Part shown: positions 3,243 to 18,197 of the stretch, in pieces
How the letters are laid out: each line of letters opens with the position of its first letter
How positions within the stretch are numbered: position 1 is the first letter of the stretch
Virus record (IMG/VR): IMGVR_UViG_3300045135_000817
Location: 1 to 30,022 of that record
Strand: one strand, 5' to 3'
Source: a virus
Length of the DNA: 30,022 nucleotides
The notes under the pieces: model-generated
The model's input: only the letters and a program-made list of their open reading frames with translations
Database searches by the model: none
What the model was told of the DNA's origin: nothing
Translations under genes and position numbers: made by a program

Positions 3243-3422
3243 TCACTTCTTACCCTTTACTTTCTTCTTAGCTGTTTTAGCCGCTGCTTTAAACGCTTTA
3301 GCTGTTGGCGCACCTTTTGCACCAGCTTTGCGCATCTTCTCGCCAGAGCCTGCAGCAATTCTTTTACGTTTTGCATGAATCGCATCGTATAGCCCTTTAT
3401 CTCCAGCTTTTTTTCTAGGCAT
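3243..3422 (-). CDS. Small Lys/Ala-rich conserved phage protein (59 aa)
   Basis: ATG 3422 to TGA 3243 encodes 59 residues starting MPRKKAGDKGLYDAIHAKRK, followed by AAGSGEKMRKAGAKGAPT and a Lys/Ala-rich tail. The pattern GDKGLYDxIHxKRxRI then GSGExMRKPGxKGAPT recurs in phages, in what I believe is the DUF5872-like family, with unknown function. It overlaps the end of the HNH gene upstream by 8 nt. Strong positive charge suggests nucleic acid contact (inference). Confidence 0.6.
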   Translation of the reverse strand: MPRKKAGDKGLYDAIHAKRKRIAAGSGEKMRKAGAKGAPTAKAFKAAAKTAKKKVKGKK

Positions 3423-3933
3423 CCTTTACAAACTCCACGTCGAGAGACAATTCTTCATCTGATAACCACATGGTAACAGATTTACATATATCAAAAAATG
3501 TCTCTGCATCCAAATCTGATTTCATTCTGTTGACGACATTACAACATAAAACAGTGTTTTCAGGAATGTAACCAATACTACTATCAATCCTTTCAACCGA
3601 AACAGAAAGCAATGTATTTGGTTGCAGTTCCATCTTAAAACCAGTGTAAACGCAAATACCTTCTTGACGCTCCCACATATCAATTAAGTCTTGACGCGTT
3701 ATTAAAAAATCATGCCCTCTCTTATCGGAAGAGTTTTTGCAGGTTCGCAAGAATGTTGTTATTCTTCCCTCAAATGTAGAATATCGCTTCTGTCTTGATT
3801 TTAGATTTCCTGCCTTGCAGCACTCCTTACACCAAGAGTGAAATCCGTCTTTCCTCTGCGAGTGCCTAAAGAAAAACTCATTCGTCGCAGGAAAAGTTGC
3901 CTTGCATTTAAAACAGGTACGACCCTTCGCCAT
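3415..3933 (-). CDS. HNH endonuclease with N-terminal zinc finger (probable homing endonuclease)
   Basis: The 172-residue protein has an N-terminal Cys4 zinc-binding part: CFKC at 7-10 and CKEC at 35-38. It then has an HNH-type core with CVYTGFKM, SVERIDSSIGYIPENT and NVVNRMKSDL. This is the layout of small phage HNH endonucleases, many of which are free-standing homing enzymes. The codons are visibly more A/T-rich (AAA, TTT, AAT) than those of the flanking terminase genes, which suggests transfer. It sits between two tiny genes, with its start overlapping the upstream stop (TAATG). Confidence 0.75.
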   Translation of the reverse strand: MAKGRTCFKCKATFPATNEFFFRHSQRKDGFHSWCKECCKAGNLKSRQKRYSTFEGRITTFLRTCKNSSDKRGHDFLITRQDLIDMWERQEGICVYTGFKMELQPNTLLSVSVERIDSSIGYIPENTVLCCNVVNRMKSDLDAETFFDICKSVTMWLSDEELSLDVEFVKDA

Positions 3934-4041: not shown

Positions 4042-5448
4042 TTATGCAATTCCGCGCAAATTCCGTTTTATTTCGCCTCGCCAAGAGCTAAACGAGCCAG
4101 ATAACGCAGTTGCAGCGTCACTTGCCATAGTCAAACACAGGGCATCAGCCAAGTCAGGCGAGGCCAAACCACGCTTGCGCATCTCATCCTTACTCTCAGC
4201 TTTCATTTTACCACTAGAGGTAAAGCTATACCTAATACTGGTCAACTCTGCGATGAGTTGGTCATTCTTAGGTAGCTTACATGAGCGATCTTCTAGCCAA
4301 CCTTTAGTTTTAAACCAAAGTTCACTCCGCAGATTAAGATAGGTATCGCCCATGCTTGGCGCTTCAGCGACGTTTACGCCGCGCACAGGCAAGCCAATCT
4401 CACGCAGGCGGTCCACCACACCTGAACCTACGCCAATGCTATCGACAAGTATCTGCGTGGGCTGTCTGCTGGGCGGTAACGCCTCATACTCAGCAACCAC
4501 CCTACCCACAGTCTGCATCAAATCCAGCCCAGACCAAGCCCTAAGCTCAGTCACAATCGGACCCTGACGCTTACACAGCGCAGTCTTATCCGTACCAAAC
4601 CGTGCTACATCCAAACCCCAGACTGACTTGGTATCCTCATCAATCTGCACATCGCGGTGCGTGGCATTCTCCACAAGATGAAACGGAATAATCGTGTCAT
4701 CGTCTGCAAGCGGAAACTCACCCAGCACACGAATACGAAACGCATTGCTTTCCTCGCCATACCTGAGCCGCATCTCATTGACGAACTCATCGCTGACCAA
4801 GGGGCTATCTACGCAAGACCACCTGCGCGTCCACCAGCTATCTGCCATGCGCGTCTGGCTTTCAAAAAACGTACCACTGGAGCGCGTAGGGTTGCTGAGC
4901 ATGATCGTAGTCGCGTTATGGCCCGACATAGACCCAGCAGCAGCCTCAAATACCTGCTCAGGCACACCAGAGGCTTCGTCCACAACCAACATAACATGCT
5001 CAGAGTGAACCCCAGCCAAGGCTTCAGGCGTTTCTGCCCTACTCGTCCTTGCAGAAATAAACATCTCTGCGGGCGCAGAGGTATGCTCAACGCGATCCGA
5101 TTTCACGTTAAGTATGCTCTGCAACCCTTCAGGCAACTCGTTGATCCAGCGCTTCAGCTCCGCAAACAACGCGTCAAAAAGCTGACTAGAAGTTGGCGCA
5201 GTTACAACAACTTTATTTGGGTAATGCATCAAAAAATACCATAGCATTGCCCATGATGCTGCTGTAGACTTACCAGTACCATGACCAGACCGAATGCTAA
5301 TCTTGCGTTCGCCAGACGCAATCGCTTCCAAAAATTCCGCTTGATACGGCAGTGGCTCCACATCAAGCACTTCGCGCACAAATAAAGTAGGCTTCTTGCC
5401 GTACCTCTGCACAAACTCAAGCATTGTGTTCTGCGCATTCTCACTCAT
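4042..5448 (-). CDS. terL: Terminase large subunit
   Basis: TerL packages phage DNA into the prohead, with an ATPase motor and a nuclease that cuts concatemers. The start is ATG 5448 (468 aa) with AAGGTGA upstream; a TTG two codons earlier is less likely. Walker A is GHGTGKST near residue 55-62, Walker B MLVVDE near 153-158, and a SNPT coupling motif lies near 185. The C-terminal RNase H-like nuclease shows GLDVARFGTDKT near 278, ILVDSIGVGSG near 333 and SPDLADALCLTM near 430, giving the usual acidic triad. The gene overlaps terS by 8 nt. All expected motifs are present. Confidence 0.95.
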   Translation of the reverse strand: MSENAQNTMLEFVQRYGKKPTLFVREVLDVEPLPYQAEFLEAIASGERKISIRSGHGTGKSTAASWAMLWYFLMHYPNKVVVTAPTSSQLFDALFAELKRWINELPEGLQSILNVKSDRVEHTSAPAEMFISARTSRAETPEALAGVHSEHVMLVVDEASGVPEQVFEAAAGSMSGHNATTIMLSNPTRSSGTFFESQTRMADSWWTRRWSCVDSPLVSDEFVNEMRLRYGEESNAFRIRVLGEFPLADDDTIIPFHLVENATHRDVQIDEDTKSVWGLDVARFGTDKTALCKRQGPIVTELRAWSGLDLMQTVGRVVAEYEALPPSRQPTQILVDSIGVGSGVVDRLREIGLPVRGVNVAEAPSMGDTYLNLRSELWFKTKGWLEDRSCKLPKNDQLIAELTSIRYSFTSSGKMKAESKDEMRKRGLASPDLADALCLTMASDAATALSGSFSSWRGEIKRNLRGIA

Positions 5449-6944: not shown

Positions 6945-7472
6945 ATGACAAGTTATATCAATACAGACCACACAACGGGCCAAATGTCGATTGACAGCGA
7001 ATACTTTGGTAAAATTTACATTCGCTTCGGCAAACACCCATCAAGCATAACATCACGCTCTGAGGGTCTTATTTACGGTGGTGGTGCGCGTTTTATCAAA
7101 GAGCAGATCAAATCTTTAGAGGAACACAAAGACGCGCTTGATATTCACATAGACTACGACAAAACGATCACGATCAATAAGGTTGATTACGAGGGTATCA
7201 GCTTTGAGATGCAAAAATTCCACGATGGATCGCGCTTATGTACATATGTGCGCGGCAAACGCAAAGGCGGTTTCTATCACGACAGTATGACAGAGGCCGC
7301 GCGTGACAAGGTGCGCAAAGAGATTGAATGCATTATTGGCGATGACTTTGACCATATTGCCAGCGCGGCGCGCGCATTCGCTATTACCAACTTCAAGCAC
7401 ACTGTTCGCGTATCATTGGAAAACGTCAAAGAGAACGTGCAATCCGCGCTTGATTACTTAGGGAAAGTGTAA
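6945..7472 (+). CDS. Unknown phage protein (175 aa)
   Basis: ATG 6945 is chosen because AAGGAAACG lies 5-14 bp upstream; an in-frame TTG at 6909 would lie inside the hairpin. The product has beta-rich stretches (KIYIRFGKHPSSI, DIHIDYDKTITINKV, RLCTYVRGKRKGGFYHD) and a helical C-terminus (AARDKVRKEIECII, VSLENVKENVQSALDYL). I do not recognise a family. It overlaps the next start (TAATG). Confidence 0.65.
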   Translation: MTSYINTDHTTGQMSIDSEYFGKIYIRFGKHPSSITSRSEGLIYGGGARFIKEQIKSLEEHKDALDIHIDYDKTITINKVDYEGISFEMQKFHDGSRLCTYVRGKRKGGFYHDSMTEAARDKVRKEIECIIGDDFDHIASAARAFAITNFKHTVRVSLENVKENVQSALDYLGKV

Positions 7473-7585
7473 TGAAAACCTACATCCAAATATTCCGCAA
7501 CATGAACACCGCCGAAAAACTATGCGCAACATGGGCTGTGTTCCTAACGATAATTACATGCGCACATATCGTATTCATATCATAA
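7472..7585 (+). CDS. Small membrane protein (37 aa)
   Basis: ATG 7472 overlaps the previous stop as TAATG. The 37-residue product ends in a hydrophobic segment (WAVFLTIITCAHIVFIS) long enough to cross the membrane once, after a polar N-terminus. A likely small inner-membrane phage protein; function unknown. Confidence 0.5.
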   Translation: MKTYIQIFRNMNTAEKLCATWAVFLTIITCAHIVFIS

Positions 7586-7597
7586 GGATCAGAGACA

Positions 7598-7945
7598 ATG
7601 GAAAAGCATAACTGGATAAACACCTTGAACCGCATGCAAAGCGAGTGCCAAGCATTGCGCAACTTAACAGGTACACAACAAGAGGCCATTCGTGATGCCA
7701 TATCGGCTCTACGCAACGCAACAGACACTTTAGGCAATGACTTCGATCTATGTCTGAGCGATTGCCGCGCTATAGACCGCGCTTTTTGGGCCATGCATCA
7801 CGCCTTTGAAAACCTTGAGCCGAACGAGCATCAGCTTGAGCAAATCGAAGCGCATAACCTTGAATGGGACTACGAAACGCAAACGTGGTCAGAGGTAGTG
7901 CCAGACGACGAAACCGTGGATGACTGGCATCCTCACGGCGTTTAG
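7598..7945 (+). CDS. Unknown acidic helical protein (115 aa)
   Basis: The ATG follows AAGGATCAGAGACA. The protein is mostly helical (TQQEAIRDAISALRNATDTL, CRAIDRAFWAMHHAFENL) with an acidic, Trp-containing tail (LEWDYETQTW, DDETVDDWHPHGV). Acidic small early proteins sometimes mimic DNA or bind host proteins, but there is no direct evidence for that here. Its stop overlaps the stop of the convergent minus-strand gene by 4 nt, so the two operons meet tail to tail. Confidence 0.6.
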   Translation: MEKHNWINTLNRMQSECQALRNLTGTQQEAIRDAISALRNATDTLGNDFDLCLSDCRAIDRAFWAMHHAFENLEPNEHQLEQIEAHNLEWDYETQTWSEVVPDDETVDDWHPHGV

Positions 7946-8115
7946 TCTAGCTCAGCCAATCGCCGCGCCATGTCGCGCAAAATGTATTTCAATTCGCGGG
8001 TAGGTATCGTTCCGATATACTGCCCGCGTTCGCTTGACCAGATGCGCAACCCGTCATCGTAGACGCTCCACCTTAGCGCGGCTTGCGTTTGTTCGTCAGC
8101 TCTGTTTTCCGCCAT
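7942..8115 (-). CDS. Unknown small protein (57 aa)
   Basis: The start is set at ATG 8115 because AAAGGAAATATT precedes it. The 57-residue product contains LRWSVYDDGLRIWSSERGQYI and a helical end RELKYILRDMARRLAELD. It overlaps the upstream gene by 43 nt in another frame. It is the last gene of the leftward replication operon. Unknown function. Confidence 0.5.
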   Translation of the reverse strand: MAENRADEQTQAALRWSVYDDGLRIWSSERGQYIGTIPTRELKYILRDMARRLAELD

Positions 8116-8333
8116 AATATTTCCTTTCGCTCTTCCTCTGTCCACGGTTCCACCTGCGCACCATATTTGCGCCTATTAGCGAAGCCCTCTAATTCCTCTA
8201 GCGTTGTCACGCTCTGCAGCTTGTCATGCAGCGTCAAACCGCGCCGCACCTTGAACGTGCCATGCGGATGAACCGTAGCCGTTCCTGCGGCTATTCTATC
8301 CTGCAACCATTTAGGAAATTCTTTTTTCTGCAA
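8073..8333 (-). CDS. Unknown small basic protein (86 aa), TTG start
   Basis: No ATG fits, but a TTG at 8333 has AAGGA seven bases upstream, so TTG is the likely start. The product has KEFPKWLQDRIAAG, VHPHGTFKVRRGL and GFANRRKYGAQVEPWTEEER segments and a basic tail. It is reminiscent of small phage proteins with a DNA-binding flavour, but no family is recognised. It is in the same direction as the primase-helicase gene, 164 bp downstream of it. Confidence 0.5.
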   Translation of the reverse strand: MQKKEFPKWLQDRIAAGTATVHPHGTFKVRRGLTLHDKLQSVTTLEELEGFANRRKYGAQVEPWTEEERKEILWRKTELTNKRKPR

Positions 8334-8370
8334 ATCTAAATCCTTCCCACCATTTCAGCGTGACCACGTT

Positions 8371-8405
8371 AATCACGGTTTTATTTTATATATAAAACCG
8401 TGATT
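8371..8405. repeat. 14-bp perfect inverted repeat, AT-rich hairpin
   Basis: AATCACGGTTTTAT (8371-8384) and its exact complement (8392-8405) flank a 7-nt AT loop. It lies in the gap between the primase-helicase gene and the next minus-strand gene. No U-run follows the stem, which argues against a classic terminator. It could be part of a replication origin or an operator. Confidence 0.55.
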
Positions 8406-8430
8406 TCGTGGTTTTGGTCTGCTCTCTGTT

Positions 8431-8460
8431 TTATTCCACTGTTTTCCACGGTTTTCCACT
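8431..8460. repeat. Three 10-bp iteron-like direct repeats
   Basis: Three tandem 10-mers (TTATTCCACT, GTTTTCCACG, GTTTTCCACT) share TTCCAC at exact 10-bp spacing. A 14-bp inverted repeat lies 26 bp to the left, and the primase-helicase gene ends 38 bp to the right. Helically phased repeats beside a replication gene are typical of origins, but copy number and length are small. Confidence 0.4.
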
Positions 8461-8497
8461 ATTCCCCCCACCTAACCCATTGATTTCATTACGCTGG

Positions 8498-10432
8498 CTA
8501 AAATGGTGCATCACGTTCCCCATCGCTTGTCCGCCCTTCTTTGCTGACAATCCAGATTTTCCCCGCATTTACCTCAATGTAGCCTTTTTCTTGCAGCTTC
8601 CCGATAGTCTGCGTCCAAGTTTGTTGCGGGTCTTTCGTTGTGACCTTGCCAACAAAATGTTCCCTTATCGTGTCGCTGTCGATACACCAGAACTTGCCCG
8701 CGTCAGGCCATCCAGCCCCCGCAGGATTAGGCGAACCCACGCGCTCCCCGCGAAGCTGCATGAAACACTTGCGGAACAGCTTTTGGTTTTGCCCCTGTGG
8801 CCTCGCGTCATTGTGCACAGCTTCCATTTCTTCGCGTGTCGCTTCACGTATGATACAAGTCGTGACCTGATCACCGTCTGCGTCTTCCCCAAGCTCGACT
8901 ATCTGCAGAATAAAGTTTATCTCCGCGCCTGTCTCCATGTCGCGCTGCTTTGTTGCTCTTGCGGTGCGCACGCGCGTTTCTTCGTCGTACGATAGTTCAA
9001 TCTCTGTATCACATGCCGCCCGCAATGCGCTTGCCCCACGCGCACCTTTCGACGCGTCTTTGCCGCTATGATGGACAAGCATGATGTGCACCCCTGTGCG
9101 ATCTCGTATAGCGTCTAGTCCTGCAATCAGGCGCGACATTTCGCTGTTATTATTTTCGTCCATTTGACCTGCCGTGGCCCTCGCAAGGGTGTCGATTACC
9201 AAAACCGTGACAGGTTCCATGCGCCGCCCAATCTCCGCCATGATAGCTTCTATCTTCGCTATATCTTCATCCGCGTCATATAGATTGATGGGCGAGGGTC
9301 TGACCGCTAGTGATACATCGTTGAACCCGTGCTTCTCGTGCAGCGCATATAGTCGGTTCTCGAATGCTCTGCCGCCCTCTGTGGCTAGATATAAGACTGA
9401 CCCGCGTTTGATCTTATTGCCGATCCATTCTTCGCCCGCAGCAATGTGGTAAGCGAGGCTCATGCAGAAAAATGACTTGCCCACGTTTGACGGGCCATAC
9501 ACCACGCTAATTGAGTTTTCCGCGATCCAGTTCTTGATTATATATGTGCTGTCCAAGCGTGGCCTTGCTGCACTTGGGAATATCACTTCGTCTAGCACGT
9601 TGCGCGGTTCTAGCTTCTTGCGTGTATCCTCTGCGCCTCTGGCTATGTAAACGTCATTCCAGTCTAAACCTTCGCTGTCTGGCAGGACGCATTCCACGCC
9701 ATGTTCCTTGAATGCTTGTTCGCAGGCTTTTAGCCCTGCAGGGTCATTGTCTCCTGCAATGATAAAGCGCGTTTCAGGTTTAACTTCACGAAGCGCGGCA
9801 ATGACGTTCACAATATTGCTGGCGTTCAGGCAATGCACCGCGGGCTTGCCCGTTGCTTCGTGTACGCTGCATGCTGTGGCAAAACCTTCGCAGAGATATG
9901 CAAAATCTTCGATCTTGCCGCCCACAACGTGAAAGCAGCCCTTGTAGTCTAGCCCGTAGTTGAATTTCTTTTTGCCAGTTTCGTCTATGAATTGCGTGCC
10001 GACTACCTTGCCTTGATTGTTGATGATCCTGATATGCAGATCGCCCTCATCAATGATTGCCGTGTGTTGCTTGATGCGCTTTCTAGTTAAATATGGGTGC
10101 AGCTCTGGCGTTTCTGGTAGCTTCACCACGTTATCTGGGGTTTTGTTCATTGCGCCGCTCGTTTCGCTTATGATTTCCTTGTCTGGATAAAGGCCACGCT
10201 CTCGCAATATCTGGATGATCTCTTTCCAATCCTGACATTGCCGACAGTTTACCTTTAGATTTCCTTGATATTCGCTAATCCAAAACCGATCAACACCCCC
10301 GCAATTAGGGCAAGGCCCATGGTGCTCTTGGTGGCTTGTCTTTTTAAGCTGTAACGCGCTTATGATTTGCGGCGCATATACGCTATATATGGGTTCTGGG
10401 TACTTGATCTTACCTACATCTTGCCCTATCAT
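8498..10432 (-). CDS. DNA primase-helicase (TOPRIM plus RecA-like ATPase)
   Basis: This 644-residue protein combines three parts of phage bifunctional primase-helicases. An N-terminal zinc finger has C41, C44, C63 and C66 (CPNCGG...CRQC). A TOPRIM fold spans about 175-260, with Glu182 (YLCEGFATA) and the acidic AGDNDPAG motif near 226. A RecA-like ATPase follows, with Walker A GPSNVGKS at 313-320 and Walker B LVIDT near 411. MLVHHSGK and GARGASALRAA motifs are typical of RepA/AAA_25-type helicases. The enzyme should make primers and unwind DNA at the phage fork. ATG 10432 has only a weak ribosome site. Confidence 0.9.
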   Translation of the reverse strand: MIGQDVGKIKYPEPIYSVYAPQIISALQLKKTSHQEHHGPCPNCGGVDRFWISEYQGNLKVNCRQCQDWKEIIQILRERGLYPDKEIISETSGAMNKTPDNVVKLPETPELHPYLTRKRIKQHTAIIDEGDLHIRIINNQGKVVGTQFIDETGKKKFNYGLDYKGCFHVVGGKIEDFAYLCEGFATACSVHEATGKPAVHCLNASNIVNVIAALREVKPETRFIIAGDNDPAGLKACEQAFKEHGVECVLPDSEGLDWNDVYIARGAEDTRKKLEPRNVLDEVIFPSAARPRLDSTYIIKNWIAENSISVVYGPSNVGKSFFCMSLAYHIAAGEEWIGNKIKRGSVLYLATEGGRAFENRLYALHEKHGFNDVSLAVRPSPINLYDADEDIAKIEAIMAEIGRRMEPVTVLVIDTLARATAGQMDENNNSEMSRLIAGLDAIRDRTGVHIMLVHHSGKDASKGARGASALRAACDTEIELSYDEETRVRTARATKQRDMETGAEINFILQIVELGEDADGDQVTTCIIREATREEMEAVHNDARPQGQNQKLFRKCFMQLRGERVGSPNPAGAGWPDAGKFWCIDSDTIREHFVGKVTTKDPQQTWTQTIGKLQEKGYIEVNAGKIWIVSKEGRTSDGERDAPF

Positions 10433-10489: not shown

Positions 10490-10522
10490 GCCCCACGTGA
10501 TCGCTCCGTGGGGCATTTTTTT
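10490..10522 (+). terminator. Terminator-like hairpin with T-run
   Basis: GCCCCACG at 10490-10497 pairs exactly with CGTGGGGC at 10507-10514, and the plus strand continues ATTTTTTT. This is a classic intrinsic terminator for rightward transcription, yet nearby genes read left. On the minus strand the hairpin comes right after the HNH stop without a following U-run. It may have arrived with the HNH gene or stop stray antisense transcripts. Confidence 0.55.
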
Positions 10523-10964
10523 ACTCTGCATGTTCTTTTGCGTGGCATAGTGGGCAGAGCCAAACCACATCCAAAGGCTTTGCATAGTCATGGTGATGCC
10601 CATGTATCTTGCCACCTGCTCCACATTTTTCACAATTTTCTGGCTTAATCACTTTGCCACTCCTTACTCTACTCCACAGTAATACATGCGCCGCACGCTT
10701 TTCTGGGTTTTGTTCTTGCCACTTCTTTTTGGCCTTACTCATTGATGCCCTGCCAGCTTTTGTGGCTTGGTATTTCTTGTGCCTTTCTTTTACCCTTGGG
10801 TCATTTTGAAAGCGCTTTTTGTCGTACTCTCTATAGTACTCTGCTTTTTCCTTTCTGTTCTGCCGAACTTTCTCTTTGTGACATTCCTTGCAGCGATTAG
10901 TCATCGAAGCGTAAAACTCGGCGTTTTCATCGGTCACGCCGCAAACCTTGCATGTTTTTGTCAT
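10521..10964 (-). CDS. HNH endonuclease (probable free-standing homing endonuclease)
   Basis: This 147-residue protein has an N-terminal Cys4 finger (CKVCG...CKEC), then a long basic helical linker (residues ~30-90). The C-terminal HNH core is CEKCG, IHGHHHDY, and LCPLCHAKEH. The His-His pair and final His are the expected metal/catalytic residues. It breaks the replication operon between the ssDNA-binding protein and primase-helicase genes. Flanking hairpins suggest an inserted unit with its own expression signals. Its start codon lies inside the arm of a perfect hairpin (10963-10984). Confidence 0.75.
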   Translation of the reverse strand: MTKTCKVCGVTDENAEFYASMTNRCKECHKEKVRQNRKEKAEYYREYDKKRFQNDPRVKERHKKYQATKAGRASMSKAKKKWQEQNPEKRAAHVLLWSRVRSGKVIKPENCEKCGAGGKIHGHHHDYAKPLDVVWLCPLCHAKEHAE

Positions 10965-14380: not shown

Positions 14381-14426
14381 GGGGGCCGAAAAAGAAGCAC
14401 AGAAATGTCATGTGAGCTGCGCCCCC
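14381..14426 (+). repeat. TIGR unit 1
   Basis: Stem GGGGGC/GCCCCC. Spacer A AAAAAGAAG (14389-14397), spacer B TGTGAGCTG (14411-14419). Edge base A2 is G here instead of A. Confidence 0.8.
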
Positions 14427-14437
14427 AAATTTTTACA

Positions 14438-14483
14438 GGGGGTCATTGTGAAAACGCAGAAATGCCATTTTTCCTTCACCCCC
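14438..14483 (+). repeat. TIGR unit 2
   Basis: Stem GGGGGT/ACCCCC, a compensated change from unit 1. Spacer A TTGTGAAAA (14446-14454), spacer B TTTTTCCTT (14468-14476). Confidence 0.85.
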
Positions 14484-14494
14484 ACCAGTTTTAT

Positions 14495-14540
14495 TTGGGC
14501 CACACAGACTGCACAGAAATGTCATTCAGGGCCTGCCCAA
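14495..14540 (+). repeat. TIGR unit 3
   Basis: Stem TTGGGC/GCCCAA. Spacer A CACAGACTG (14503-14511), spacer B TTCAGGGCC (14525-14533). Unit 4 follows with no linker. Confidence 0.85.
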
Positions 14541-14592
14541 GGGAGAGGTCAGGCGCAACGCTCAGAGATGTCAATTCATCACCGCCTCTCCC
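14541..14592 (+). repeat. TIGR unit 4
   Basis: Stem GGGAGAGGT/GCCTCTCCC, the innermost pair T-G. Spacer A GGCGCAACG (14552-14560), spacer B ATTCATCAC (14574-14582). Core reads CTCAGAGATGTCA. Confidence 0.8.
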
Positions 14593-14604
14593 AACAGTTT
14601 TATT

Positions 14605-14650
14605 TGGTGCCAACAGGAGACAGCAGTAATGCCAATTTCAGATCGCACCA
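14605..14650 (+). repeat. TIGR unit 5 (diverged core)
   Basis: Unique stem TGGTGC/GCACCA. Spacer A ACAGGAGAC (14613-14621), spacer B ATTTCAGAT (14635-14643). Core is AGCAGTAATGCCA. Confidence 0.75.
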
Positions 14651-14651
14651 A

Positions 14652-14703
14652 GGGAAGGGCCAGCATAATGTCGCAAAAATACCAACGCGTAGACGCCCTT
14701 CCC
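14652..14703 (+). repeat. TIGR unit 6 (diverged core)
   Basis: Unique stem GGGAAGGGC/GCCCTTCCC. Spacer A GCATAATGT (14663-14671), spacer B ACGCGTAGA (14685-14693). Core is CGCAAAAATACCA. Confidence 0.75.
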
Positions 14704-14714
14704 AACTTTTTACA

Positions 14715-14760
14715 GGGGGTCATTCGAGCAGCGCAGAAATGTCACATGAAGCTCGCCCCC
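14715..14760 (+). repeat. TIGR unit 7
   Basis: Stem GGGGGT/GCCCCC with T-G innermost pair. Spacer A TTCGAGCAG (14723-14731), spacer B CATGAAGCT (14745-14753). Confidence 0.85.
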
Positions 14761-14769
14761 CCACAATTT

Positions 14770-14815
14770 TTGGGTCAGAGAAAGAACGCAGAAATGTCAT
14801 TCCATACTTACCCAA
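14770..14815 (+). repeat. TIGR unit 8
   Basis: Stem TTGGGT/ACCCAA, a T-A innermost pair where units 3 and 11 have C-G. Spacer A GAGAAAGAA (14778-14786), spacer B TTCCATACT (14800-14808). Confidence 0.85.
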
Positions 14816-14867
14816 GGGAGAGGCTAACCCTGCCCCGCAGAAATGCCAGTTAAAGTCCGCCTCTCCC
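14816..14867 (+). repeat. TIGR unit 9
   Basis: Stem GGGAGAGGC/GCCTCTCCC. Spacer A ACCCTGCCC (14827-14835), spacer B GTTAAAGTC (14849-14857). The first interior base is T instead of C. Confidence 0.85.
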
Positions 14868-14879
14868 GACCAGTTCACA

Positions 14880-14925
14880 GGGGGCCATTGCGGGATCGCA
14901 GAAATGCCACCAGCATCCCGCCCCC
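14880..14925 (+). repeat. TIGR unit 10
   Basis: Stem GGGGGC/GCCCCC. Spacer A TTGCGGGAT (14888-14896), spacer B CCAGCATCC (14910-14918). Spacers could pair in part (CGGGAT with ATCCCG across the edge). Confidence 0.85.
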
Positions 14926-14932
14926 ACCAAAT

Positions 14933-14978
14933 TTGGGCCATATAGGTAGCGCATTTATGCCGTTCTCGTCCCGCCCAA
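14933..14978 (+). repeat. TIGR unit 11 (diverged core)
   Basis: Stem TTGGGC/GCCCAA. Spacer A TATAGGTAG (14941-14949), spacer B TTCTCGTCC (14963-14971). Core is CGCATTTATGCCG. Confidence 0.75.
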
Positions 14979-14984
14979 TAACCA

Positions 14985-15028
14985 GAGGCCATTACGGCTC
15001 CGCAGCAATGCCATAAGACGAGCGCCTC
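14985..15028 (+). repeat. TIGR unit 12
   Basis: Short stem GAGGC/GCCTC. Spacer A TTACGGCTC (14992-15000), spacer B TAAGACGAG (15014-15022). Core CGCAGCAATGCCA. The Tas start codon is 21 bp after this unit. Confidence 0.8.
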
Positions 15029-15049: not shown

Positions 15050-15757
15050 ATGGACAAGAGATACGAAAACCCGACAATCGCAATGATTTACCGCACATGG
15101 CGCAATCGTCAGAATATGGTGCGTGCAGAGGGCAAGCTAGTATTGCAGATCAAGGCAATCTGCCGTGGCTTCTGTGACGGCGACATCAAGGAAGCAAACA
15201 AGCTGTATAAACGTCTAAAGGATGGAGAGGGCACATTAGAGGCCACAGCCGCTACGCAGCCTCTATTCGAGGCCAGAGAGCCTCTACTGGAAAGCCGTGC
15301 CGCGTTTGAGAAATGGCTTATTGATCTAGCTAAGCAGCTGCCTGCCGCAACATTTGTGGATAAGGTAAGGGGTTTCGGTCATCTTGGCCTTGCAGGTATC
15401 GTGGGCGAAGTCGGCGACTTCATGGCATACGAGAAAGAGCTTGACGGTATATACAAGCGGGCTGGACTTGCCGTGATTGAAGGTGAACGGCAGCGCAAGC
15501 ACAGCAATGCCGACATGGCTCTTTTACATGGTTACAACCCATCTAGGCATTCTGTGTTCTGGACTATTGGTGACAGCTTGCTAAAATCACAGGGTAAAGA
15601 AGAAAATGCTGGGCCATACCGCATAATCTACGATAATCGTAAAGCAATGGAACGTGAGCGCGTTGACACAGATGGTCACGCTCATAACCGCGCTTTGCGT
15701 TACATGACCAAGCGCCTAGTGCGCGATTTATATAACGAATGGAAAGAGGTAGCATGA
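15050..15757 (+). CDS. Tas protein, nuclease-less (TasA-like, Nop / IS110 C-terminal-like)
   Basis: The 235-residue protein starts at ATG 15050 with AAAGGAAA upstream, directly after the array. Residues ~15-100 are helical and charged (RTWRNRQNMVRAEGKLVLQI), like the coiled coil before the IS110 Transposase_20 domain. Residues 106-123 read VRGFGHLGLAGIVGEVGD, matching the GIGxxxAxxxxAEIGD helix-hairpin-helix of that domain and of Nop-type RNP proteins. GIYKRAGLAVIEGERQRK (133-150), YNPSRHSVFWTIGDSLLK (162-179) and HNRALRYMTKRLVRDLY (212-228) follow in the family order. The place where IS110 enzymes carry the catalytic Ser-Gly reads Glu-Gly, and no RuvC DEDD or HNH part is present. So it should bind guide RNA and DNA without cutting. 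Tas proteins are described as guided by dual-spacer tigRNAs. Confidence in a Nop/IS110-like domain is higher than in the exact subtype. Confidence 0.82.
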   Translation: MDKRYENPTIAMIYRTWRNRQNMVRAEGKLVLQIKAICRGFCDGDIKEANKLYKRLKDGEGTLEATAATQPLFEAREPLLESRAAFEKWLIDLAKQLPAATFVDKVRGFGHLGLAGIVGEVGDFMAYEKELDGIYKRAGLAVIEGERQRKHSNADMALLHGYNPSRHSVFWTIGDSLLKSQGKEENAGPYRIIYDNRKAMERERVDTDGHAHNRALRYMTKRLVRDLYNEWKEVA

Positions 15758-15758
15758 A

Positions 15759-15932
15759 ATGACTGACAACCAGATCGCAAAGTATTTGGAACACACAATA
15801 AGAGACTGCATAGCGGCACGAGCAAATCCCACATCTGCACTAGTGCATATTGATGCAATACATTCTAGGATGAAACACGTTTTAGATAAGCTCAAAGAAG
15901 AGCGTGAAGATGTAACAGGAGCACCAGTATGA
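15759..15932 (+). CDS. Unknown small helical protein (57 aa)
   Basis: ATG 15759 starts one base after the Tas stop and its stop overlaps the next start (ATGA). The product is helical (NQIAKYLEHTIRDCIAARAN, IDAIHSRMKHVLDKLKEER). Position makes it co-translated with the Tas gene, so it may be an accessory protein, but nothing in the sequence shows this. Confidence 0.55.
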   Translation: MTDNQIAKYLEHTIRDCIAARANPTSALVHIDAIHSRMKHVLDKLKEEREDVTGAPV

Positions 15933-16195
15933 CAATAGCTACAGCATGGGCTGCACTAGCCAAGCAGGAAAATGCTGCGTACCGCAAGAAATGGGGTACA
16001 GGTCTGCAACAGCAGAAGAGGGAAGAACCAAAGCCAAAGCAAAAGGGCAGGCCGAAAGGCTCGTACAACCCAGAACGCTTGGCGTTGATTAAGGAGCTGA
16101 TAGAGGAAGGTTTCCGCACGGTAGACATTGCCAGAGAGGCAGGAATATCTGAAAGCAGCGTGCGTTACTGGAAAGCTAAGTATTTCATGAAGTAA
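15929..16195 (+). CDS. Small helix-turn-helix protein (88 aa)
   Basis: The C-terminal part reads RLALIKELIEEGFRTVDIAR, then EAGISESSVRYWKAKYFMK, a clear helix-turn-helix of the resolvase/terminase-like kind. A basic KGRPKGSYNP segment before it resembles an AT-hook. The N-terminus is helical (ATAWAALAKQENAAYRKK). It is the third overlapping gene after the array and could be a regulator of the operon or a DNA-binding partner of Tas (inference). Confidence 0.65.
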   Translation: MTIATAWAALAKQENAAYRKKWGTGLQQQKREEPKPKQKGRPKGSYNPERLALIKELIEEGFRTVDIAREAGISESSVRYWKAKYFMK

Positions 16196-16596: not shown

Positions 16597-16950
16597 TTGC
16601 CTATCAAAGACAAGGGGAAGCGCAGGGAATATAACAAGAAGTACGGCGCTGATTGGTATCAGCGTAACCGTGAGAAGACGCTTGAGCGCGTCCGAAAGCG
16701 CAAGAAAGAGCAGCGACAAAAGTTCAGGGATTATAAGGCAGGCTTGTCCTGCTTTTTTTGTGGCTTTTCCCATCCTGCTGCAATAGATTTTCACCACCCC
16801 GACCAGAACGGCGATCCAAAGGTAAGTGCCTTATTGCAGCAAAGCAGATTTAAGAAAATGTGGGAAGAAATTGAGAAAACGATCCCACTGTGTTGTAACT
16901 GCCACAGGATTTATCATTGGATGGAAAAAGAGGGAGAAAAGGATGAATGA
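16597..16950 (+). CDS. HNH endonuclease-like protein (117 aa), TTG start
   Basis: The frame opens just after a stop at 16591 and the first usable codon is TTG 16597, with only weak AGAAG upstream. The product has a Lys/Arg-rich helical first half (KRREYNKKYGADWYQRNREK) and an HNH core: CFFCGFSHPAAIDFHHPD near residue 50 and IPLCCNCHRIYHW near 96. This is a common phage HNH, often annotated as a homing or packaging-associated nuclease. It is a separate gene three positions after the Tas gene. Confidence 0.7.
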   Translation: MPIKDKGKRREYNKKYGADWYQRNREKTLERVRKRKKEQRQKFRDYKAGLSCFFCGFSHPAAIDFHHPDQNGDPKVSALLQQSRFKKMWEEIEKTIPLCCNCHRIYHWMEKEGEKDE

Positions 16951-17383: not shown

Positions 17384-17856
17384 ACGATAAGTTCAAAGTG
17401 CGGCATATCGTTGAAGCCTCTGCGACCCTGCGATCTACGTAGATCGTGATAGGCTTCCCAGCATTCTTTCATGTCTGTTTGCCATAGTCTGCAGTCATAC
17501 GGGTACTTGTGATCTGGCACAGCCCATGCAGCGCCCCAGCACAGCGCAACGTCACACACCTTTGCTGCCTGCTGCATTGCATCTGCAATCGGGAAGTACG
17601 CACTTTCTTCCCAGCGAATACCTGTAACGCTGTCGTATGCGCCTAAGTCCACAGCAAGCCCATCAATGTGCTTTGACTTCATGGTCTGGCTGTTGCCCTT
17701 CTGCACAAGCTCACGCTGACGTTCAATGGAACGCAAACCTTCCAAAACTGTGAAGTCAGTCTTTGATATGCCGATAGCATACTTCACGACTGCAACTAGA
17801 CGCTCATCAACACCCTCTAGGCGTGACAGGCTACGCTTTCCTAATTTAAAGCTCAT
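17380..17856 (-). CDS. Endolysin, M15-family peptidoglycan peptidase
   Basis: The start is ATG 17856 (158 aa) with GAGAGGA upstream. The protein shows the M15 zinc-peptidase motif SKHIDGLAVDLG (zinc ligands His63 and Asp70) and the third ligand in MPHFEL near the end (His153). It resembles phage L-alanyl-D-glutamate peptidases. It cuts peptidoglycan cross-link peptides at lysis. No signal peptide is seen, so it should need a holin; a membrane protein gene overlaps its start. It is the last gene of the late operon. Confidence 0.88.
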   Translation of the reverse strand: MSFKLGKRSLSRLEGVDERLVAVVKYAIGISKTDFTVLEGLRSIERQRELVQKGNSQTMKSKHIDGLAVDLGAYDSVTGIRWEESAYFPIADAMQQAAKVCDVALCWGAAWAVPDHKYPYDCRLWQTDMKECWEAYHDLRRSQGRRGFNDMPHFELIV

Positions 17857-18197
17857 TTCTTTAATCCTCTCATAGTTCTTATTCCGAAACTGGCGGCAAT
17901 CGACGCATACATGCCCCATTGAACCCAGAGGGGGGTTGTCTCAAGGTTAGCAAATCCCTGTGCCATGGTATCTTGTAAGCTAGGCACAAAGTTAGCAGCA
18001 AGGATAAGAACAAACACAATAGTCCAAAGTTCGTCCTTCCATGAGTTTTGTGCAGAACGTATAGCCTCAAGTTCCCAATCAATCTCGCCAGTGGCTTGCT
18101 TGAGTTTGATTTCTGCATTTGCTTTCTGTACCGCTGTCTTCCCATCAACCCAAGCAGTCGCCAAACCGCCAAGGCTGGATATAATACTCGCAATCAT
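17853..18197 (-). CDS. Holin-like membrane protein (114 aa)
   Basis: Two hydrophobic stretches are visible: MIASIISSLGGLATAW at the N-terminus and WTIVFVLILAANFVPSL near 60, with a third amphipathic segment (WGMYASIAASFGIRTM) near the end. The layout matches the three-segment holin family of phages, next to the endolysin gene and overlapping it by 4 nt. Holins make membrane holes to release the endolysin. The charged middle helix (KANAEIKLKQATGEIDWELE) is also family-like. Confidence 0.7.
   Translation of the reverse strand: MIASIISSLGGLATAWVDGKTAVQKANAEIKLKQATGEIDWELEAIRSAQNSWKDELWTIVFVLILAANFVPSLQDTMAQGFANLETTPLWVQWGMYASIAASFGIRTMRGLKK

Follow-up and report, generated by a model that had tools for sequence, protein, structure and literature searches.

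We report that a marine phage carries tasA, a gene for a Tas protein of the Nop type, together with an array of 12 guide units. The window, i.e. the whole stretch of DNA analysed, is a 30-kb virus record of IMG/VR (IMGVR_UViG_3300045135_000817; 30,022 nucleotides), and all coordinates refer to it unless another locus is named. The protein family and the anatomy of the array are firm, and the locus is almost certainly a TIGR-TasA system. The explanation that best accounts for the whole, and which we hold to be distinctly probable, is a phage TIGR-TasA system that addresses 17-bp sites and silences related phages without cutting their DNA. The two main features are the following.

14381-15028, + strand: TIGR stem-loop array of 12 units, ending roughly 20 nt upstream of the start codon of tasA
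15050-15757, + strand: tasA, 235-aa solo Nop-domain Tas protein, with predicted long N-terminal helices and a C-terminal Nop/RNA-binding part, without nuclease

TasA, a Tas protein lacking the nuclease

An earlier note on this DNA had described an open reading frame (ORF) at 15050-15757 (+) as a nuclease-free relative of the Nop and Tas proteins lying next to an array. It supposed that the protein binds DNA under RNA guidance and could block or regulate, and it named neither the type of array nor a target. The ORF is where the note placed it, its 235-aa translation is as quoted, and the blocks singled out there (GFGHLGLAGIVGEVGD, AGL..EG, YNPSRHS and ALRYMTKRLVR) are all present; their core is kept in relatives as remote as 26-38% identity. 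The proposed kinship is borne out by matches far above chance to the NCBIfam model TIGR_Tas_endo and to the sequence of TasR 9MTY. The former (NF052498) covers residues 49-232 with E=6.7e-22 and 78.5 bits, under the curated cut-off of 100. The latter, the TasR described in the TIGR-Tas work (Faure 2025, PMC12045711), is the sole meaningful sequence match of TasA in the PDB, with E=1.3e-9 for the single sequence, 1.9e-10 for the A1 profile and 1.8e-14 for the A2 profile. Pfam returned nothing meaningful, and its Nop domain family was unmatched at E<=1.

The claim that the nuclease is missing also held: searches of Pfam, NCBIfam and PHROG gave neither a RuvC nor an HNH domain in TasA, and the N-terminal RuvC-like DEDD domain of IS110 is absent from it in the family searches. 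Since the protein has only 235 aa and the Tas match spans residues 49-232, there is no room for a nuclease beside the Nop part. In the alignment to TasR, the Glu-Gly of AVIEG falls on the Asn-Gly of TasR SVDNG, with no serine at E144; TasR likewise has no serine at the matching position.

A first structure model was discarded as too poor (pLDDT 56). The Foldseek check advised in the note was run on a second AlphaFold2 model, and TasH in complex with pre-tigRNA and DNA (21kl) came out on top among 350,542 chains (probability 0.87, E-value 0.22), the remaining matches listed having a probability of at most about 0.4. Because this second model is still weak (pLDDT 61.8), the fold match serves as support, and it is the sequence that identifies the ORF as TasA, a solo-Nop Tas protein.

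The PHROG name of the family is 'transposase', and IS110 models match TasA weakly. Both would suit a decayed IS110 element, in which the C-terminal half of a transposase lies functionless beside degenerate repeats. We find this very improbable. The Tas model is far stronger than the IS110 transposase model (E=2.2e-5), and the ORF is intact at 80-98% identity in dozens of phages, with 48 close relatives in IMG/VR. Stems and boxes are conserved beside fast-changing spacers (see below), and the remote phage relatives L050, L051 and L095 have arrays too. No close relatives of tasA were found in bacterial genomes or in plasmids.

Anatomy of the array

Each unit consists of a stem, YCA (box C), a 9-nt spacer A, CG (box D), an 8-nt loop CAGAAATG, a second YCA, a 9-nt spacer B, a second CG, and the other side of the stem. 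The array that the note had placed beside the protein is real: a search for the box and loop motif that ignored stems gave 13 matches on the + strand and 0 on the - strand of the 30 kb. All 12 matches within the array have flanking stems of 4-8 bp and the single match outside it has none. The outer stem forms in the eight units that were folded one at a time. Tandem Repeats Finder did not detect the array, probably because its units are too diverged, and Rfam gave no family above threshold. The units, all on the + strand, are listed below with their stems and spacers; "paired" marks complementary ninth bases (A9:B9).

14381-14426, +: unit 1, GGGGG stem; A=AAAAAGAAG, B=TGTGAGCTG
14438-14483, +: unit 2, GGGGG stem; A=TTGTGAAAA, B=TTTTTCCTT; paired; same spacer A with another B in L004/L006
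14494-14541, +: unit 3, TTTGGG stem; A=CACAGACTG, B=TTCAGGGCC; paired; identical spacer pair in L002
14541-14592, +: unit 4, GGGAGAGG stem; A=GGCGCAACG, B=ATTCATCAC; paired; identical spacer pair in L002
14603-14652, +: unit 5, TTTGGTG stem; A=ACAGGAGAC, B=ATTTCAGAT; L003 and L049 have the same spacer pair
14652-14703, +: unit 6, GGGAAGGG stem; A=GCATAATGT, B=ACGCGTAGA; paired; identical pair in L002 and L006
14715-14760, +: unit 7, GGGGG stem; A=TTCGAGCAG, B=CATGAAGCT
14767-14818, +: unit 8, TTTTTGGG stem; A=GAGAAAGAA, B=TTCCATACT; paired; identical pair in L013
14816-14867, +: unit 9, GGGAGAGG stem; A=ACCCTGCCC, B=GTTAAAGTC
14880-14925, +: unit 10, GGGGG stem; A=TTGCGGGAT, B=CCAGCATCC
14933-14978, +: unit 11, TTGGG stem; A=TATAGGTAG, B=TTCTCGTCC; paired
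14985-15028, +: unit 12, GAGG stem; A=TTACGGCTC, B=TAAGACGAG; paired; a GAGG-stem unit recurs last before tasA in many relatives

The same anatomy is found across 73 array-bearing loci, some of them overlapping pieces of one contig, which together hold 211 distinct spacer pairs. In the window and its 48 relatives, 353 units lie on the + strand and 0 on the - strand. Over all array loci, stems of at least 4 bp flank 531 of the 543 motif matches within arrays, and 24 of the 26 matches outside arrays have stems of 0-1 bp. The stems comprise several unrelated sequences of 4-8 bp with compensatory exchanges; over four positions, 97-99% of the pairs are matched, with G-C, A-T and T-A replacing one another. 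The boxes covary as well, the first base of box C with the second base of box D (C-G exchanged for T-A). The outer box pair is C-G 132 times, T-A 42, T-G 37 and C-A 5; the loop-side pair is C-G 167 times, T-A 17, T-G 21 and others 11. The TasR structure requires a box C-box D base pair like the one seen here (PMC12045711).

Covariation of the spacers and the length of the target site

A9 and B9 form a Watson-Crick pair in 55 of 110 spacer families, or in 48 of 108 when other representatives are taken (44-50%), where 25% is expected. Among the 81 position pairs this is the only strong outlier (Z=5.9; next 2.6). Complementarity holds for 48.6% of comparisons within the own unit vs 22.5% with neighbouring units (permutation P about 1/20,000). 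Provided that spacers A and B address opposite strands, as they do in TasR, this covariation implies a site of 17 bp whose two halves have one base pair in common. Each spacer pair can then be written as a single 17-mer, 5'-[B1-9][reverse complement of A1-8]-3', with A9 and B9 both reading the central base pair. We consider it likely, with good statistical backing within this phage group, that the target site has 17 bp and that the two spacers share its central base pair.

The two bases could instead touch each other in the guide RNA or the ribonucleoprotein, as a base pair or a packing contact, since they occupy equivalent spots beside box D in a pseudo-symmetric RNA. This seems to us quite unlikely: the pair is not nested in the hairpin, where A1 lies opposite B9 and A9 opposite B1, perfect matches to DNA occur at a 1-bp overlap only (next section), and the target guides of IS621 also overlap, by 2 bp at the core (our own reading of the base-pair numbering in PMC11208158).

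In the work on TasR, spacers A and B showed no obvious covariation, and sites with 0-2 bp gaps were cut (PMC12045711). By eye, A9 and B9 are complementary in about 1 of 7 units in the dual-repeat array of Microcystis phage Mvi-JY20, with no sign of covariation.

Candidate targets in related phages

The 17-bp reading was confronted with 4.36 Mb of related phage DNA, partly redundant and with arrays masked, at ten spacings of the two halves. Perfect matches between guide and DNA occur at the 1-bp overlap only. There are 2 such 17/17 matches, against a naive expectation of 0.03; shuffled pairs that keep the A9-B9 class give 0.10-0.18, and 1 of 300 shuffles reaches 2. In the first match, the guide CCCCCTCTG/ACTGTACCC of arrays L007-L009 fits the site CCCCCTCTGGGTACAGT in a small gene adjoining the endolysin gene. 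The match is exact in 7 loci (some overlapping), has 1 mismatch in 16 more, and has 2 in the window; the site is absent within 3 mismatches from the L007-L009 records, which carry the guide. In the second, the guide CTACATTCA/TTATGTCTT of array L040 matches a tail-fibre gene in L308 as a perfect 17-mer. The records tested that have either perfect site lack tasA, several of them being fragments. We think it probable that genes of related phages are the natural targets of some guides, and a terminase gene in L203 is suggested as a further target, at 1 mismatch, of the guide GTGAGATTA/CCACTCCAT. The copy of the first site in the window is as follows.

17918-17934, - strand: site of the L007-L009 guide, with 2 mismatches, within the small gene 17853-18197 (-) beside the endolysin gene

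This small gene belongs to PHROG 2524, whose function is unnamed, and its segment TTPLWVQWGMY is highly conserved; by eye, the product is possibly a holin-like lysis protein.

Several points weigh against this account. About half of the units lack A9-B9 complementarity, and the 17-bp geometry was both found and tested on the same single phage group. Just 2 of the 104 A9-B9-consistent guides have a perfect target in the 4.36 Mb, and the enrichment at 1 or 2 mismatches is weak, the observed level being reached by 23/300 and 35/300 shuffles. In the phage DNA scanned, the window's own 12 guides have no target under 2 mismatches. One near target (1 mismatch) lies in the TIGR-bearing phage L004. Finally, several target records are fragments, so the target phages may not all be without TIGR.

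Two other signals were set aside. A geometry with a +2 bp gap gave 12 matches from just three guides, mostly in redundant loci and within the control range at 2 mismatches. The raw excess at gap -1 (27 vs 10.8 units) was largely inflated by the A9-B9 covariation; with a control that keeps the covariation there are 21 vs 14.1 families, and over all DNA 33 vs 27.5.

The same TasA system might serve to regulate the phage's own genes or those of its host (lysis timing, lysogeny, host takeover) rather than to act on other phages. Repression would be natural for a protein without nuclease, regulatory roles of TasA are discussed in PMC12045711, and the target search covered phage DNA only. We nevertheless regard such a role as unlikely. 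No self-target was found in the window and related phages at several geometries: the window has none within 2 mismatches, and the DNA of the other array-bearing phages examined has no exact match. The perfect matches fall in other phages, and the spacers turn over between near-identical phages, unlike what is expected of guides for conserved sites of the phage or its host.

Turnover of the guides

Guides are replaced fast within fixed scaffolds, sometimes by halves, since the spacers differ while boxes and loop are kept and half-units are shared. Where the tasA genes of two loci share 95-98% identity, units in corresponding positions have boxes and loop that are mostly 75-100% identical and spacers that are mostly 20-60% identical; most spacers are unrelated between units equally far from tasA. 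An identical spacer A goes with a different B in 5 unit pairs (e.g., 14443 in the window vs 5504 in L004), where 0.08 are expected by chance, and an identical spacer B goes with a different A in 2 unit pairs. These half-unit swaps suggest exchange at the central loop. No mechanism of guide replacement was seen in the loci examined.

The last units of L007-L021, which have the GAGG stem, include spacer families that vary at every third position only (TCGACAACG/TCGACGACA/TCAACGACA), as if following a coding target. Such periodicity is striking in a few families (these and CAATCGTGA/CACCCCAAT), and it shows no excess over all homologous spacers, so we did not retain it as a general feature.

Proposed mode of action

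We infer the following course for transcription, processing, binding, blocking and benefit to the phage. The array is most likely transcribed together with tasA, as the two lie on the same strand without a terminator-like site between them; promoter and terminator scans gave no signal beyond chance. The transcript would be cut into single stem-loop guide RNAs, and a TasA dimer would bind box C and box D at both ends of the guide. The two 9-nt spacers would each pair with a different strand of a single 17-bp DNA site, which the complex may open and occupy, thus blocking transcription or replication; it would not cut, because it has no nuclease. Some guides would be aimed at genes of related phages that lack the system, whereby competitors would be suppressed, and guides would be exchanged fast, sometimes half a unit at once, with the scaffold fixed. 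Silencing without cleavage is in our judgement rather likely. The fuller proposition, that stem-loop TIGR-TasA is a quickly retargeted non-cutting weapon against related phages, directed at contiguous 17-bp sites by guides swapped in fixed scaffolds, sometimes as half-units, stands for us in even balance.

Comparison with known systems

The locus is a member, in a constant-loop form, of the published stem-loop TIGR-TasA type (Faure 2025, PMC12045711), because a solo Nop protein without nuclease and stem-loop units fit that type. With the published Peromyscus gut metagenome locus it shares this protein, the tandem stem-loop units and the palindromic stems that stand where edge repeats would be; TIGR systems also occur mostly in mobile elements. 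Here, however, the loop CAGAAATG has a constant length and a near-constant sequence, a form that the paper mentions as an intermediate, and all spacers have 9 nt, A9 and B9 covary, and candidate natural targets are seen.

The dual-repeat TIGR-TasR and TasH systems have in common with it spacers in tandem that are attributed to opposite strands, the pairing of box C with box D, and a homologous Nop domain (9MTY, 21kl). They differ in that the present system lacks the nuclease, has stems instead of edge repeats, and would read a site of 17 bp whose halves share a base pair, whereas theirs has 18 bp in abutting halves. IS110/IS621 share the Nop-like Transposase_20 part and two guide segments on opposite strands; here, the RuvC DEDD half is missing, there is no serine where the TasR Asn-Gly aligns, and many guide units are present where IS110/IS621 have a single target loop and a single donor loop. 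Box C/D small nucleolar ribonucleoproteins (Nop5/Nop56/58, Prp31) share the logic of a box C/box D guide RNA and, by published comparison, the Nop fold, whereas here Pfam Nop is unmatched and the two candidate spacer targets are genes in phage DNA.

The authors of the TIGR-Tas work found genuine spacer targets hard to identify and the function of nuclease-free TasA unclear (PMC12045711). New here are the guide turnover, the A9-B9 covariation with its 17-bp geometry, and two perfect matches in related phages. This phage group provides 73 loci, 211 distinct spacer pairs, a rule by which each pair becomes a single 17-mer that can be searched for, and candidates for natural targets in phage DNA; what TasA does, and how new guides are gained in the absence of adaptation genes, thereby become testable. 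If true, the 17-bp arrangement stands between TasR, with its abutting halves, and IS110, with its 2-bp shared core, and the shared central base pair would tie TIGR guides to the core of the IS110 bridge RNA.

Remote relatives

The TIGR-Tas model also matches the TasA proteins of three remote relatives. That of Mvi-JY20, with its dual-repeat array, passes the NCBIfam cut-off (193 bits), and the two other stem-loop TasA proteins are below it. Rhizobium phage RHph_X2_25 (L050; MW960032) has a TasA of 33% identity near a repressor, and stem-loop TIGR units with 10-nt spacers lie on both sides of it (7340-8850), the last spacer bases being complementary in 3/5 units. The annotated start of this TasA is probably too early and the true one downstream, because two units lie within the start of the annotated ORF. 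In Mvi-JY20 (L051; PP438412), a dual-repeat TIGR array (ATGCGAGCC / ACGAAACCC, 36-nt period, terminator-like end) occupies 4612-4928, just downstream of an unannotated TasA. A third array type, recognised by eye in L095 (3080-4900), has CGA/TG boxes and loops resembling AAAC, and it surrounds the gene for a TasA relative of 308 aa.

Phage and gene neighbourhood

The host of the window phage likely belongs to Rhodobacterales, because its portal and primase are nearest to those of Octadecabacter and Roseobacter phages: the portal is closest to that of Octadecabacter Antarctic DB virus 2 (48% identity) and the primase to those of Roseobacter phages CRP-821/822 (50% over part of its length). Most genes of the window are directed leftward, and a small rightward group at about 13.8-17.1 kb holds the array and tasA. 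The same group includes, downstream of tasA, a small helix-turn-helix protein (15929-16195, +) with Pfam HTH_Tnp_1, HTH_28 and HTH_7 above the cut-off. Three small Cys/His-rich proteins (3415-3933, -; 10521-10964, -; 16597-16950, +) have no Pfam match and look by eye like HNH-type endonucleases.
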